Shown: piece after piece, positions 2,220-9,366 of the stretch | How positions within the stretch are numbered: the first letter of the stretch is position 1 | Layout: each line of letters starts with the position of its first letter | Assembly (NCBI RefSeq): GCF_000008545.1 | Contig: NC_000853.1 | Span: forward strand, 1,192,465-1,256,464 | DNA length: 64,000 nucleotides | Origin: Thermotoga maritima MSB8 | Lineage (GTDB): Bacteria > Thermotogota > Thermotogae > Thermotogales > Thermotogaceae | Direction of reading: 5' to 3' | Position numbers and translations under genes: made by a program | The notes under the pieces: generated by a model | Databases searched by the model: none | Told to the model about the DNA's origin: nothing | What the model saw: only the letters and a program-made list of their open reading frames with translations

Positions 2220-5200
2220 CTACACCTCCAGTATTTTCTCCACCTCTACCGGAACGATGGCCGACACACCGTTCACCATGGTCACCCCATGTAGAAGATC
2301 GGCCGCTTCCATCACGATTTTATTGTGTGTGATCACGATGAACTGGGTGTGCTTCGAGTTCTCTTTGAGGAGCCTCTTGAACCTCTCTGCGTTGTAATCA
2401 TCGAGGGGAGAATCAACCTCGTCGAGCACGTAGAAGGGACTCGGTTTTATCTCCATGAGAGCGAAAAGCAGAGCCAGTCCCACGAGCGCCTTCTCGCCAC
2501 CCGAAAGAAGACTCAACTTCTGATCTCTTCTTCCCGGCTTTCTTATGGATATTTCAAAACCCGCATCGAGAATGCTCTTGGCTTCAGAAACGATGTTGAG
2601 TCTTCCTTCACCACCGAAGAAGAGCAGAGAAATGAACCTGTTGAAACTCTCGTTCACCCTCTGGTAAACGTCGAAGAGCAAGCTCTCCGCTTCTCGATCC
2701 GTTTTTTCTATGATCTCTTCGAGTTTTCGTTTTGCTTCCTCGAGATCTTCTTTCTGTTTCAGTATTTCCTCGTACTCTTCACGGAGTTTCTCGTACTCGT
2801 CTATCGCCGTGAGATCGACAGGACCGAGGTACTTTATTTTGTTCTCCAGATCTTTTATCTGTCTGTAAATCTCCTCGAGCTTTTCTTCGTCGAGCTCTTC
2901 AACGTCCTCTTCGTTTCCAGAGAACTCCTCCAAAAGGTTTGCTATCTTCAATCTGGTCTCCTGAAGAGCCAGATCTATCTGGTGGAGGTGATTTCTCAAT
3001 CTTTCCTTTTCTTCCTTCAGTTCGTCCATCCTGTTTTCTACTTCCTGAAGCTCTCGCATCTTTTCTTCTTTACCTGATCTGTGAAGTTTCATGGCTTCGA
3101 ACACACTGTCCATTTCTTTCTTCAAATGCTCGATTTCTCTTTCGTGTTCTCTTATGAACTTTCTGTAGTTTTCCATCTCTTCCTCAAGGCTTGTCATCTG
3201 CAGTTTTATGTCTTCTGTTTCCCGGGCAATGCGTTCTATCATTTTTCCCGTGTCGCGCATTTCCTTTTCGTATCGATCTTTTGTTTCCAAAAGATTTCCA
3301 ACCTCTGCCCTGAGCGTGAAGATCTTTTCGTTGAGTTCATCGAGAATCTTCTTTTCTTTCTCGAGTTCTTCGGAGTATTCGGTCAGCGATCTTTGGAGGT
3401 TTTCTCTGTTCTGCTTCAGCTCGTCGATCTCCTCGAAGATCTTTTCTCTTCTCGCGTTCAGTCCTTCCTCTTTTGCCCTGTACTCAACCAGGAGCTTCTC
3501 CAGATTTTCCACCTCTTCCTGAAGCTGATTGATAGATCTCAAGATCTCGGACAGAACGGTTTTGGTCGAAGACGATTTCCTGGAGAGTTCGAACAGTTCC
3601 CTCTGAACGAGCGCTTCCTGATTTTTCAGGTTTTCCTGTTCTGTCTTCAGACTGGCCAGTTCGTCCCTCTTTTCTGCGATTTGTCTCTCTGTTTCTTCCA
3701 TCTCCTGCTCCAGGTGCTTCAATTTTATGCGTCTTTCAAACACGTTGCTCGATCTTTCTTCCCTTCCTCCTGTTATGGCTCCTCTTCCGCTTATGAGTTC
3801 ACCGTCGAGGGTAGCGATTCTGGTGTTCAAGCGGTATTTTTTCTTCATTCTGATCGCGTCGTCTAGTGTTTCCACCACCACGGAATTCCCAAAGAGAAAT
3901 CCTCCCAGAACTTCCAAGTCCGAAGGAAATTTCACCAGATCAACAGCGTACCCCACAAATCCTCTTTCGTTTTCCAGACCGGATATCCTGTTGAATGAAC
4001 CGTCTATCAGATCGAGTGGAAGAATGGTCACCCTTCCCGCTTCGTTCTGTTTCAAAAATTCCACGATCGCTTTCGCTGTATCCACATTTCTCACCACGAT
4101 GTTCTGAGCCGTCCCACCGAGAAGCACGCTCACAGCGAGGGAATACTTTTCATCCACCTCTATCAGATTCGAAACCACGTCCACAAGTCCGGGAAAGCGC
4201 TCCTTTTCTTCGAAGACTGCCCTCACCGCCCTCGAGAATCCACGGTACTCTCGCATATCACGCTCGATCATTTCTTTTTCGAACTGGATCTCTCTCAATC
4301 TCTTCTCTTTCGCGTCTATTTCCAGATTGACCCTTCTGATCTCTCCCTCGATCTCTTCCAGTCTTTCACGAACAGCGTTCAATTCTTCTGTCAATTTTTT
4401 CTCCTCTTCATCGAGTTCTTCCACACGCCTGGATATCTCTTTGAACTCGTTCTTTTTATCTTCGAGCTCTCTTCTCCTCGTTAGTATCTGATTTTCTGTT
4501 ATTTTTCTCCTCTTTTCGAGGTCTTCGAGCGTTTCTCCTATCCTCAAAAGTTCGTTCTCCAGTTTGAGTATCTGCTTTTCTAACTTGGAGATTTCGTCTC
4601 TGACCCTCAGAAACTCTTTCTCCTTATCGTTGAATCTCGAAAGGAGATTTTCTTTCTCTTTTTCGAACTTTTCGAGCTCTTTCGCTTTCCTCTCGTAGTC
4701 TCCCATCACTCCTTTGAATATGTACTCCATCTCTTCAAGACGTTTTTTGTACTCTTCTCTTCGCTTCTCCAGTTCATCGAGCCTGGTGGACAATTCCACG
4801 TACTTGTTTTCACTGTCTGCGAGCTTTGAAGAGTAGAATCCTTTCATCTCCACGAGGTCGTTCTGTCTTTTCTTGTAGTCTTCGAGGAGTTTCGTGTAGC
4901 GTTCTATTTCCTGGTCCATCTCTCCGAACTCACTTCTCAGGGTGCTCCACTTCGTCTCCAGTTCCACCAGTTCTTTCTGGATGTTCTTTATCTTCTCGTT
5001 TGTCTTCTTTTCTTCTTCCTGGTAGAACTCCAGTTTTTTTCTTTCTCTCTTCAAAACGTTTCCGTAGTAGATCTTTTGAAGTTCCTCGAGCTGGGCCGTG
5101 TACTCTTTGAACCTCTCAGCGCGTTTGGCTTTGAGGTAGAGAGATTTCATCTGCCTTTCGCGCTCAAACAGAACGTCTTTCACCCTGTCGAGGTTCGCTT

Positions 5201-5732
5201 TCGTCCTTTCGAGGTTCAGCTCTGTTTCCTTTTTCTTCTCTCTGTATATGGAAACACCCGCCGCCTCTTCCAGCAGCAATCTCAGTTCTTCAGGTGAGGC
5301 ATTAACGATTCTGTCTATCTGTCCCTGTCCCACAATGGAATAGAAATCCACTCCAAGACCGGTACCCGCGAAGCGATCCCTGATGTCTTTCAATCTAACC
5401 GGGCTTCCGTTGAGGTAGTAAGTGTTTTCTCCCGTTCTCTTCAACTCACGGGCCACGGTTATTTCCTCTCCGTTTTCTTCAAAGACAAGCTCCACATAGG
5501 CAGAGCCAGCCGGTGGAAGGTTCTCCGATCCAGCAAAGATCATATCGAACTTTTCACTCGCGCGGAGTTCTTTCTTCGATTGTTCACCGAACACCCACTT
5601 TATGGCATCTATGATGTTGGATTTCCCGCTACCGTTGGGACCAACGATAGCGGTCACGCGATCGGAGAAACCTATCAGGGAAGGTCTTCCAAAGGATTTA
5701 AAACCTTTTAAGTAGAGTTTTTTCAGTCTCAA
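2220..5732 (-). CDS. smc: Chromosome partition protein SMC
   Basis: The structural maintenance of chromosomes ATPase, 1170 residues from a TTG start at 5732 that has a good ribosome site (GGAGGGGATCGG) immediately upstream. An open frame extends 50 codons further upstream, but it would cross the divergent promoter and has no support. Walker A GPNGSGKS lies at residues 31-38. Two very long heptad-rich coiled coils flank a hinge containing LLGGTAQNIVVRN near the middle. The C-terminal head has the signature LSGGEKA (about 1076-1082) and Walker B FYVLDEVD (about 1100-1107). SMC dimers with ScpAB load on DNA and compact and segregate the chromosome. No scpA or scpB gene is in the window. This is the first gene of the operon that includes fliS. 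Confidence 0.97.
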   Translation of the reverse strand: MRLKKLYLKGFKSFGRPSLIGFSDRVTAIVGPNGSGKSNIIDAIKWVFGEQSKKELRASEKFDMIFAGSENLPPAGSAYVELVFEENGEEITVARELKRTGENTYYLNGSPVRLKDIRDRFAGTGLGVDFYSIVGQGQIDRIVNASPEELRLLLEEAAGVSIYREKKKETELNLERTKANLDRVKDVLFERERQMKSLYLKAKRAERFKEYTAQLEELQKIYYGNVLKRERKKLEFYQEEEKKTNEKIKNIQKELVELETKWSTLRSEFGEMDQEIERYTKLLEDYKKRQNDLVEMKGFYSSKLADSENKYVELSTRLDELEKRREEYKKRLEEMEYIFKGVMGDYERKAKELEKFEKEKENLLSRFNDKEKEFLRVRDEISKLEKQILKLENELLRIGETLEDLEKRRKITENQILTRRRELEDKKNEFKEISRRVEELDEEEKKLTEELNAVRERLEEIEGEIRRVNLEIDAKEKRLREIQFEKEMIERDMREYRGFSRAVRAVFEEKERFPGLVDVVSNLIEVDEKYSLAVSVLLGGTAQNIVVRNVDTAKAIVEFLKQNEAGRVTILPLDLIDGSFNRISGLENERGFVGYAVDLVKFPSDLEVLGGFLFGNSVVVETLDDAIRMKKKYRLNTRIATLDGELISGRGAITGGREERSSNVFERRIKLKHLEQEMEETERQIAEKRDELASLKTEQENLKNQEALVQRELFELSRKSSSTKTVLSEILRSINQLQEEVENLEKLLVEYRAKEEGLNARREKIFEEIDELKQNRENLQRSLTEYSEELEKEKKILDELNEKIFTLRAEVGNLLETKDRYEKEMRDTGKMIERIARETEDIKLQMTSLEEEMENYRKFIREHEREIEHLKKEMDSVFEAMKLHRSGKEEKMRELQEVENRMDELKEEKERLRNHLHQIDLALQETRLKIANLLEEFSGNEEDVEELDEEKLEEIYRQIKDLENKIKYLGPVDLTAIDEYEKLREEYEEILKQKEDLEEAKRKLEEIIEKTDREAESLLFDVYQRVNESFNRFISLLFFGGEGRLNIVSEAKSILDAGFEISIRKPGRRDQKLSLLSGGEKALVGLALLFALMEIKPSPFYVLDEVDSPLDDYNAERFKRLLKENSKHTQFIVITHNKIVMEAADLLHGVTMVNGVSAIVPVEVEKILEV

Positions 5733-5751
5733 ACCGATCCCCTCCCACACG

Positions 5752-5804
5752 TTAGATTTTATCATTGTGGAGTGATAAAATTGATAACTGCAAGGAGGTG
5801 AAAA
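5752..5804. promoter_or_regulatory. Mirror-symmetric divergent promoter, smc / aldo-keto reductase
   Basis: The 73-bp space between the two start codons contains a perfect inverted repeat, TTTTATCA-8 bp-TGATAAAA (5757-5780). Read outward, each arm gives TGATAAAAT, an extended -10 box (TGnTAAAAT), on the plus strand at 5773-5781 and on the minus strand at 5764-5756. Predicted starts are near 5788 and 5749, well placed before the ribosome sites (AAGGAGGTG at 5792-5800 for the plus gene, GGAGGGG for smc). -35 elements are weak. The same repeat could instead be a repressor site. Confidence 0.55.
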
Positions 5805-5805
5805 T

Positions 5806-6945
5806 ATGCAGTACAGAGAATTCGGAAGAACCGGAGTGAAGACGTCGCTCCTCGGTTTTGGAGCCATGCGACTCCCCGTCATTGGAGAGGATCATTCAAA
5901 CATCGACGAAGAGAAAGCCATCGAAATGATCCGTTACGCCATCGATCACGGTGTGAACTACGTTGACACGGCCTATCCTTACCACGGAGGAAACAGTGAA
6001 AAAGTCGTGGGAAAAGCACTGAAAGACGGATACCGTGAGAAAGTTTTTCTCGCAACCAAATCTCCCGTCTGGCAGGTGGAAAAACACGAAGATTTTGAGA
6101 GAATTCTCGACGAACAGCTGGAGAAACTCCAGACGGATCACGTTGATATGTATCTCATGCACGCACTGAACAAAGAAAGATGGGAGAAGATCAAGAATCT
6201 GAGATTCTCCGATTTCTTCGAGAAAGCGAAAGCAAAAGGAAAGATAAGATTTGCGGGCTTTTCGTTCCATGACAGCTATCCAGTTTTTAAAGAGATCGTC
6301 GATGGGTACGACTGGGACTTCTGCCAGATACAGCTCAACTACATGGACGTGAACTACCAGGCAGGACTGAGAGGATTGAAATACGCTGGATCAAAGGGAC
6401 TTGCCGTTGTGATCATGGAACCTCTGAAAGGTGGAAAGCTCGCAAGACTTCCAGAGAAGGTCATGGAAATTCTGAGGAAATACAACAAGAACTGGTCTCC
6501 GGTAGAACTGAGCTTCAGATGGATTGGACATCATCCGGAGGTTTCCACCATATTGAGTGGAATGAGCACCCTCGAACAGGTGAAACAGAACATAGATATC
6601 ATGAGCAAGATCACTCCCGGCAATCTCACAGACGAAGATATGAAGATGATAGAAGAGATAAGAAAAACCCTCGAGTCTTTTGCTGTGATAAACTGTACTC
6701 AGTGTGGATACTGCATGCCGTGTCCGAACGGTGTGGATATCCCCGGAAACTTCCGTCTGTACAACGAAACCGTCATGTTCGAAGATTGGGAAGGTGGAAG
6801 AAGAACGTACAAATGGCTTGAAAGTCAAAAATCTGCTGCCTCTTTCTGCGTTGAATGTGGTGAATGCCTCAGCAAGTGTCCGCAAAAGCTCGACATACCG
6901 AACCTTCTGAAAAAAGTTCACAGGGAGCTGGCAGAGGTCAAATGA
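5806..6945 (+). CDS. Aldo/keto reductase with C-terminal two-cluster ferredoxin-like domain
   Basis: A 379-residue cytoplasmic oxidoreductase. Residues 1-280 form the AKR TIM barrel with the catalytic tetrad visible as D54 (NYVDTAYPY), Y59, K85 (LATKSP) and H119 (YLMHA). Residues 290-379 add a bacterial ferredoxin-type tail with C297/C300/C303/C306 and C348/C351/C354/C358, enough for two [4Fe-4S] clusters. This architecture is a known AKR subfamily in anaerobes, in which electrons may come from ferredoxin instead of, or as well as, NADPH. The gene has a strong ribosome site (AAGGAGGTG) and overlaps the next gene by 4 bp. With methylglyoxal synthase two genes downstream, reduction of methylglyoxal or a related aldehyde is a reasonable but unproved guess. 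Confidence 0.92.
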   Translation: MQYREFGRTGVKTSLLGFGAMRLPVIGEDHSNIDEEKAIEMIRYAIDHGVNYVDTAYPYHGGNSEKVVGKALKDGYREKVFLATKSPVWQVEKHEDFERILDEQLEKLQTDHVDMYLMHALNKERWEKIKNLRFSDFFEKAKAKGKIRFAGFSFHDSYPVFKEIVDGYDWDFCQIQLNYMDVNYQAGLRGLKYAGSKGLAVVIMEPLKGGKLARLPEKVMEILRKYNKNWSPVELSFRWIGHHPEVSTILSGMSTLEQVKQNIDIMSKITPGNLTDEDMKMIEEIRKTLESFAVINCTQCGYCMPCPNGVDIPGNFRLYNETVMFEDWEGGRRTYKWLESQKSAASFCVECGECLSKCPQKLDIPNLLKKVHRELAEVK

Positions 6946-8873
6946 AAAAACTCATCTGGCCGGTGCTCCTCGTGGGCACCGCCTTCCTGATCATTTATTC
7001 TTTCCTGATCGGCACCCCTCTTGAAATTCACTTAGCGACTCGCTGGGAAATTGCCCTTCCCAGAGTTCTTTTTCTTCTCGGATCTTTTTTGCTGAACACT
7101 TTGTTTTCCCTGACAGGATCGTACGTGGTTCTTTTCGGAAGCGTTTCTTTGTTTCTCGGCGCGCTGATGAATCTTCTGGAATTTTTCTTTGTTTATCCGC
7201 CTTTGTTCTATGCAGTCAAATTGATCTTTTACGTGGCCGGTTCTCTTCTGCTTCTAATTGGAATCTTCAGAGTATTTTTAAAACTGAAAAGATTCACCCT
7301 GATGTTCAGAGGACTCTTCGAGGAAAACAACGACATGGTGATATACTACGACCCATCTGGAAAGATCGTTGATGTGAATCCAGCCGCCGAGAGATTCCTG
7401 GGATACACCCGCATCGAGCTTCTCGGAAAAACCATAGAGGAGATTTCTAAGCCAGCTGAAGAAAAGGTGTTGTTTCAAATCTTGAATTTTTCACAGAATG
7501 GGATAAAGACTCTGGAAAGAGAATTTCTCTCAAAGGATGGAAGAACCATTCTGTGCGAGTGTAAATTGGTTCCGGTATATGAAGGAAAGAAGATCGCTAT
7601 GATTCAGGAAATCGCACGCCCCATCGATGATATAAGGAAAATAGAGGATCAGATCAGAAAAGAAAGAAAAAGATTCCTCACTTATTTCAACAACATTCCC
7701 GTTTTGAGTGTGATTCTGAGAGAAGATGGAACGGTTGAAGACGTGAACGAAGCAGGCTGCAAACTTTTGGGAGTGAACAGAGAACAGCTTCTGAACAAAA
7801 ACTGGTTCGACATGTTCCACGAAAGTTTTCCACACGAAACTTTTGAAAGATCGTTCAAAGAAAAAATGGTGCATGAAGGTAGAATAGATGGAAGAGTCAT
7901 AAGATGGGTGTTCATACCCCTTGAGGAGAACAGAGTGATGGTGACAGGCCTTGACATCACAGAATTGAAGGAAAATCTCACATCTCTGGAAAGTGACAAA
8001 AAATTCTATCAGCTTCTTCTGGATCTTTCAAAAAGCCTTCTATCGCTCGGATGGAACGATTTCGTGTTCAAACAGTATCTTTCTCCGCTCGGTGAAGTGT
8101 TCGGTTCAAAGAGTGTGGCCCTGTACGAAAAAAAGAACGGGAATTTTGTTCTGACAGCCTCTCTCAACGGTTCTTTCGAAGAGATTTTGTCCAGGATACC
8201 GGAAGACATAGATTGTGAGAATGAAATGTTGGGAATTCCTCTTGAGTACGAAACTGAAACTTTTGCAGTGCTTCTCATCGGCTGTGGAAAAACCGACGAG
8301 AGACTTTTTGAGATGGCCAGACTTTTGAAAAATTACCTAGAACTCATCTACTGGAAATTGAAGGGGGAGGAGAGGATCCTCTGGCTTGCCGAACGCGATT
8401 CCCTGACGGGTGTGTACAACAGAGAAGCGTTCGAAAACAGACTCGCTTACCTCATCAACCTTTCAAAAAGGTACAACAGAAAACTCTCCTTCGTCTTCAT
8501 CGATCTTGATGATTTCAAGCGTATAAACGACTCAAAAGGCCACCTGGTTGGAGATCGAGTTCTGAAGGAGTTTGTAAACAGACTCACTTCGCTTCTGAGA
8601 AAATCGGATGTAGTTGGTAGACTAGGAGGGGACGAATTCGGTATCGTACTCCCTGAAACGGATCGAACGGGAGCGGAAATTCTCATGAAGAGAATAGAAG
8701 AGCACTTCAGAGAACCTGTTCTAGTGGATGGAGAATTGTTTTCAGTGAATTTCAGCTACGGTATCAGCGTGTTCCCCGAAGACGGAGAGAGTGTGAAAGA
8801 ACTCCTGAAGGTCGCAGATGAAAGGATGTACATGAATAAATTCAGCAAGAAGAGGGGGAGAGAGAATGTCTGA
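6942..8873 (+). CDS. Membrane-anchored PAS-PAS-GGDEF diguanylate cyclase
   Basis: A 643-residue signalling protein starting at the ATG that overlaps the reductase stop (ATGA). Residues 1-115 hold about four hydrophobic membrane segments. Two PAS-like domains follow (about 125-235, with [20 protein letters not shown], and about 255-370, with [16 protein letters not shown]), then a less clear GAF-like or linker region. The C-terminal GGDEF domain begins at [14 protein letters not shown]. The active-site GGDEF is intact at 562-566 and an RKSD inhibitory site lies at 553-556. It should make cyclic di-GMP from two GTP in response to an unknown PAS ligand. It overlaps mgsA by 8 bp, so all three genes are translationally coupled. 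Confidence 0.92.
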
Positions 8874-9366
8874 CAGACCAAGAAGGTACAAGATATTTAT
8901 GGACAAAAAGAAGAGGATCGCTCTCATAGCACATGACAGAAGAAAGAGAGATCTTCTTGAGTGGGTGAGCTTCAATCTTGGAACGCTCTCCAAACACGAG
9001 CTTTACGCTACAGGTACAACCGGCGCTCTCCTTCAGGAAAAACTCGGTCTCAAAGTACACCGACTGAAAAGCGGACCCCTCGGTGGAGATCAGCAGATCG
9101 GTGCAATGATCGCCGAAGGGAAGATAGACGTGCTCATATTCTTCTGGGATCCTCTGGAACCTCAGGCACACGACGTGGATGTGAAAGCGCTCATCAGGAT
9201 AGCCACAGTGTACAACATCCCCGTCGCCATCACAAGATCCACAGCGGACTTCTTGATCTCCTCACCGCTCATGAACGATGTGTACGAGAAGATTCAGATA
9301 GACTACGAAGAAGAACTGGAAAGAAGAATCAGAAAAGTGGTGGAAGGCGAGGAGGAAGAGACTTAG
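8866..9366 (+). CDS. mgsA: Methylglyoxal synthase
   Basis: A 166-residue enzyme that converts dihydroxyacetone phosphate to methylglyoxal and phosphate, a bypass of lower glycolysis when phosphate is scarce. The family signature [14 protein letters not shown] is complete (G70 to I82), with D75 matching the catalytic aspartate. [16 protein letters not shown] (94-109) is equally diagnostic. The N-terminus carries a short basic extension of about 13 residues before the usual [13 protein letters not shown] start; an internal ATG at residue 12 is an alternative start. The gene overlaps the GGDEF gene by 8 bp and, tail to tail, the zinc-ribbon gene by 4 bp. Confidence 0.97.

Follow-up and report, generated by a model that had tools for sequence, protein, structure and literature searches.

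Two overlapping divergent extended -10 promoters very probably lie back to back between smc and a reductase gene set in Thermotoga maritima

Classical overlapping divergent promoters lie on opposite strands, and the regions that polymerase binds at the two of them overlap. In bidirectional promoters (Warman et al. 2026, PMC12825309) the two starts are most often 18 bp apart, spacings of 10 and 23 bp being also common. Five bidirectional promoters of E. coli showed little competition at basal activity, being too weak for it at that level, and competition can appear once one direction is activated (PMC12825309). In T. maritima, the extended -10 mode has the highest information for 63% of the transcription units, transcription starts 7 bp after the -10, and the leaders include a short class of 11-17 nt, lengths of 18-25 nt being underrepresented (Latif et al. 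2013, PMC3636130). A word search of the available text of that paper for 'divergent' and 'bidirectional' finds no discussion of overlapping divergent pairs.

The window (the whole stretch of 64,000 nucleotides that was analysed) contains an intergenic gap of 73 bp, at 5733-5805, from which smc (minus strand) and a reductase gene (plus strand) diverge. Its features are the following.

2220..5732, minus strand: smc, TTG start (NCBIfam TIGR02168 SMC_prok_B, 1184.8 bits)
5739..5745, minus strand: Shine-Dalgarno sequence of smc, GGAGGGG in the minus-strand reading, from the sequence
5749 (could be 1-2 nt off), minus strand: predicted smc transcription start, placed 7 bp after the -10 as in PMC3636130
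5751..5755, minus strand: CTAAC immediately past the smc -10 (GTTAG on the plus strand), invariant in 8/8 genomes
5756..5764, minus strand: smc-side extended -10 box TGATAAAAT, hexamer TAAAAT at 5761-5756, invariant in 8/8 gaps
5765..5772, no strand: 8-bp spacer TTGTGGAG between the boxes, length constant in 8/8, seven of its eight columns variable
5773..5781, plus strand: reductase-side extended -10 box TGATAAAAT, hexamer TAAAAT at 5776-5781, TGnTA[A/G]AAT in 8/8
5788 (could be 1-2 nt off), plus strand: predicted reductase transcription start, placed 7 bp after the -10 as in PMC3636130
5793..5800, plus strand: Shine-Dalgarno sequence of the reductase gene, AGGAGGTG, all eight columns invariant in eight genomes
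5806..6945, plus strand: aldo/keto reductase with a 4Fe-4S dicluster domain, ATG start (Pfam)

We take TM1182 and TM1183 to be the locus names at this smc/reductase gap. The reductase gene is the first of an overlapping set on the plus strand, followed by a PAS-GGDEF frame from 6942 and an MGS-like frame at 8866-9366 (overlapping reading frames, Pfam), while smc is followed on the minus strand by a NUDIX frame, a frame without Pfam match and FliS. The preliminary description had placed smc on one side and reductase, GGDEF and MGS-like genes on the other, and the domain matches agree with these contents. The Shine-Dalgarno sequences of both genes stand at the expected positions. In that of smc, four of the seven columns are invariant among the eight genomes compared, and the remaining three differ in G004 only. 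On the minus strand the smc frame stays open upstream (5733-5882), across the whole promoter gap and as far as an ATG at 5882, and automatic gene calling could therefore place the smc start too far upstream. In five of seven relatives this open stretch is shorter by 39-49 aa, which supports the TTG at 5732 as the smc start.

The gap had been reported to contain an inverted repeat, TTTTATCA-N8-TGATAAAA, at 5757-5780, and this repeat is exact. Its perfect arms reach 1 bp further out (A at 5756, T at 5781), which gives a 9+8+9 palindrome, ATTTTATCA-TTGTGGAG-TGATAAAAT, at 5756-5781. The 1,860,725-bp genome has a single exact copy, and with up to two mismatches the palindrome is found at three places, its own site and two more. 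When three mismatches to the shorter, reported pattern were allowed, the window gave two matches versus 0.63 expected, a number reached in 9 of 100 shuffles and not significant. The window contains 16 perfect repeats with 9-bp arms (loop 3-20), of which only the smc/reductase palindrome has arms with eight or more A/T positions; sequences from an order-1 Markov null (20 runs) contained 0.25 such repeats on average and never more than two. As all 9-bp-arm repeats together also exceed this null (16 versus a mean of 6.85 and a maximum of 11), the palindrome counts alone are weak evidence. The bare palindrome is thus unusual, though possible by chance. Stronger evidence against chance than the palindrome as such is the promoter reading of its arms: TGNTANAAT and its complement occur just eight times in the 64 kb, and two of these eight are the palindrome arms.

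Two similar structures were found elsewhere. At L175 (1501-1524; G000 C1:1831815-1831838), a copy of the palindrome with two mismatches sits downstream of a divergent-looking Shine-Dalgarno sequence, and the last T of the -10 hexamer is missing from both of its arms. In a related genome, L163 (G009 C1:295175-295199) contains another perfect pair of 9-bp arms, ATTATAACA-N7-TGTTATAAT, so that perfect symmetry arises elsewhere too.

The arms had also been described as mirror-image extended -10 boxes, and this part of the description stands: each arm reads outward as TG-A-TAAAAT toward its own gene, and the boxes are kept in 8/8 genomes. Both arms consist of a TGn element and a TATAAT-like hexamer (consensus TGnTAnAAT). 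Where a spacer of 17 bp would place the -35 boxes, the sequence is TAGATT on the plus strand and TCAATT on the minus strand, matching TTGACA at three and two of six positions, respectively (by eye), and a simple sigma-70 scan, which demands a -35 match, found no promoter in the gap. Neither promoter would have a good -35 box, because its place is occupied by the -10 region of the other promoter. The TG element would supply the contact instead, and the smc and reductase promoters would accordingly be of the kind that works in the extended -10 mode. The inner part of CTAAC would also serve as the -35 position of the reductase promoter.

The predicted leaders are about 17 nt (smc) and about 18 nt (reductase), with about 39 bp from one predicted start to the other. 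These lengths would roughly fit the short leader class of T. maritima; the plus-strand leader of 18 nt is at the edge of the underrepresented 18-25 nt range, which counts against it. In its TGn plus hexamer and weak -35, as well as in its predicted leaders of 17-18 nt and very short promoter gap, the locus resembles the RpoD extended -10 promoters of T. maritima (PMC3636130). It differs from the promoters described there in that the two boxes face apart with only 8 bp between them. A word search of the main text of PMC3636130 finds no mention of TM1182, TM1183 or smc, and among the titles and abstract openings listed in literature searches there was no paper on the smc/reductase gap; mapped starts may well be printed in the supplement of PMC3636130.

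The two promoters resemble classical overlapping divergent promoters in lying on opposite strands, and overlapping polymerase binding is predicted here. RNA polymerase covers a promoter from about -55 to +20, and with the boxes at these positions two polymerases would cover nearly the same DNA. They differ from the classical kind in that both lack a good -35 and in that their -10 boxes are identical in T. maritima.

The same geometry bears on the proposal, made in the preliminary description, that smc and the reductase operon share a single symmetric promoter, and on a bidirectional promoter of the Warman/Grainger type with one -10 read on both strands. Such promoters are reported to be common in prokaryotes (PMC12825309), and the locus is similar to them in that a symmetric sequence would be read in both directions and in the steric exclusion that would be expected. 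This class, however, has starts 7-25 bp apart and -10 positions that overlap reciprocally (PMC10268837), whereas the gap contains two separate, non-overlapping -10 boxes 8 bp apart with predicted starts about 39 bp from each other, and its symmetry is kept in only three of eight genomes. We therefore regard the single promoter as extremely improbable.

The conservation of the gap was compared among relatives. Among 14 genomes of the family, the reductase search gave a match at any level in 12 and a close copy (69-100% identity) in eight, and in all eight of the latter smc adjoins the reductase gene divergently. In five further family members (G001, G002, G003, G011 and G013) smc is present, and no close reductase copy was found; inspection by eye of the 160 bp before their smc genes revealed no TGATAAAAT. 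No smc match was obtained in G012. A further 80 reductase relatives (44-60% identity) were left out of the gap comparison, as a search for the smc N-terminus at their loci gave a single weak match (L055, 42 aa).

In the alignment of the eight gaps, the two extended -10 boxes are present in every genome and the N8 between them is of constant length. Perfect symmetry of the arms is restricted to three of the eight, T. maritima itself, G006 and G007, so that the boxes persist throughout and the perfect match of the arms does not. Invariant columns make up 16 of 18 in the arms versus 22 of 55 in the rest of the gap, where they largely belong to the Shine-Dalgarno sequences (Fisher P = 0.00026, a test that treats columns as independent and overstates independence among eight close relatives, seven of them of one genus).

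The two arms are conserved in different ways. All nine columns of the smc arm are invariant, including the n of TGn, which is A in 8/8 genomes, and the arm lies within an invariant stretch of 15 bp, GTTAGATTTTATCAT, at 5751-5765 (8/8 genomes). The reductase arm has seven invariant columns of nine, the variable ones being 5775 (the n of TGn) and 5778 (hexamer position 3); n is A in three genomes, C in three and T in two, and hexamer position 3 is G in one genome. The more distant G004 carries C at the n of the reductase arm, so that the symmetric state may be a derived one. The 15-bp stretch exceeds what a bare extended -10 would need, and some further constraint may act on the smc side; in GTTAGATTTTATCAT, the start region of smc and the reductase -35 position may be combined.

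This difference between the arms (9/9 versus 7/9 invariant columns) could be taken to mean that only one promoter works, most likely the invariant smc arm, the other arm being a decoy or a minor start. We consider this highly improbable, as the reductase arm varies only where an extended -10 tolerates variation, its predicted leader has a roughly fitting length, and the window contains no other plus-strand TGNTANAAT.

The pattern of variation also distinguishes a symmetric element from two promoters. One symmetric promoter or an operator for a dimer would predict matched arms, whereas two separate promoters predict a free n. In the eight gaps the variation falls on the free positions of a promoter while TG and hexamer are kept, which favours two promoters. 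The rarity by composition of an AT-rich perfect repeat with 9-bp arms, and the conservation of the smc arm beyond a bare -10, would also suit an operator at which a dimeric regulator of both genes binds. Yet the half-sites are not conserved together (n fixed as A on the left in 8/8; A, C or T on the right), and there is no sign of a regulon among the three places of the genome with up to two mismatches: the one at 887077 is another back-to-back promoter pair, and the one at 1831815 has arms that each lack the final hexamer T. The length of the gap, 73 bp, also speaks against an operator: median promoter gaps in T. maritima are 78 bp without a known transcription factor site and 161 bp with one (PMC3636130). 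An operator is thus, in our estimate, very unlikely.

Taken together, these features make it very probable that the repeat represents two independent, overlapping divergent sigma-A extended -10 promoters, placed back to back in the 73-bp gap. The left promoter would drive smc, and probably also the minus-strand genes that follow it, while the right promoter would drive the plus-strand reductase / GGDEF / MGS-like set. The perfect palindrome is most likely a by-product of both arms matching one consensus; it would be perfect here and in two near relatives only because both arms carry the same version of TGnTAnAAT. Two polymerases probably could not occupy the gap together, so that initiation events would exclude each other. 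Such mutual exclusion, which the preliminary description had also proposed, is plausible from the geometry and the extent of the polymerase footprint. Because median promoter information is higher in T. maritima than in E. coli (8.7 versus 5.9 bits, PMC3636130), competition of this sort merits attention in this organism.

Back-to-back pairs were then counted in other genomes and elsewhere in this one, with the patterns ATTTTAnCA or ATTATAnCA followed by N0-30 and TGnTAnAAT; other hexamers are missed by these patterns, and the counts are lower bounds. The T. maritima genome has at least nine distinct places of this kind versus none for the reversed controls. Their spacers are 2, 2, 5, 6, 8, 8, 8, 10 and 25 bp, and only the smc pair, one of the nine, has identical arms. 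Seven of the nine pairs lie between divergent genes, which in our judgement are mostly unrelated in function. Besides smc and the reductase, the flanking products are an ABC transporter and a protein without Pfam match, DHH-CBS and MreB, radical SAM and a Pol III gamma-related protein, nucleotidyl transferase and ribosomal L9, and RecJ and HD. In six of the nine pairs, each side has a start that follows an SD-like 4- or 5-mer and lies no more than 40 nt from the -10 (a permissive test, in which a start opens a frame longer than 60 aa or one still open at the end of the locus). In L135 and L140, just one of the two sides has a start of this type, with an SD-like mer, close to the box.

The L133 pair is flanked by fliF and, opposite, by an open frame that reads like an ABC ATPase (by eye); the ATG that opens this frame follows the -10 by 7 nt and has no Shine-Dalgarno sequence. 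This fliF / ABC-ATPase-like pair (L133, 1501-1530) is a possible candidate for a leaderless message; PMC3636130 reports that such messages were not detected in T. maritima.

Within the genus, both patterns were matched in 7/7 genomes and in no control. Sites in these genomes that look like those of T. maritima keep the spacer or differ from it by one, as judged from the strings alone, synteny being checked for the smc site only. A module of fixed spacer was considered, three of the nine T. maritima spacers being 8, and was rejected, as the spacer shifts by one in lookalike sites (9 in G010, 11 in G009). Across the class, at least 89 of 98 genomes contain the first pattern; several of them also match the controls, and the spacers are spread broadly, so no preferred spacer is claimed from the class.

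The recurrence of such pairs raises the idea of a Thermotoga module, in which two extended -10 boxes stand back to back, separated by about 2-10 bp, each on the -35 of the other, and polymerase must choose one direction. We regard this module as unlikely. If it existed, exclusion alone, with no regulator involved, would couple the firing of unlinked operons in a genome whose compactness leaves no room for regulators. The sets coupled in this way would be smc and the methylglyoxal/c-di-GMP genes, mreB and a DHH-CBS protein, ribosomal protein L9 and a nucleotidyl transferase, and recJ and an HD protein. The smc/reductase gap is a clean case of a palindrome with the look of an operator or symmetric promoter that is better explained by two back-to-back consensus boxes, the tell-tale being the free n of TGn. 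The pairs would also give a small, countable set of gaps in T. maritima for measuring, free of any regulator, the possible exclusion of polymerase between operons.
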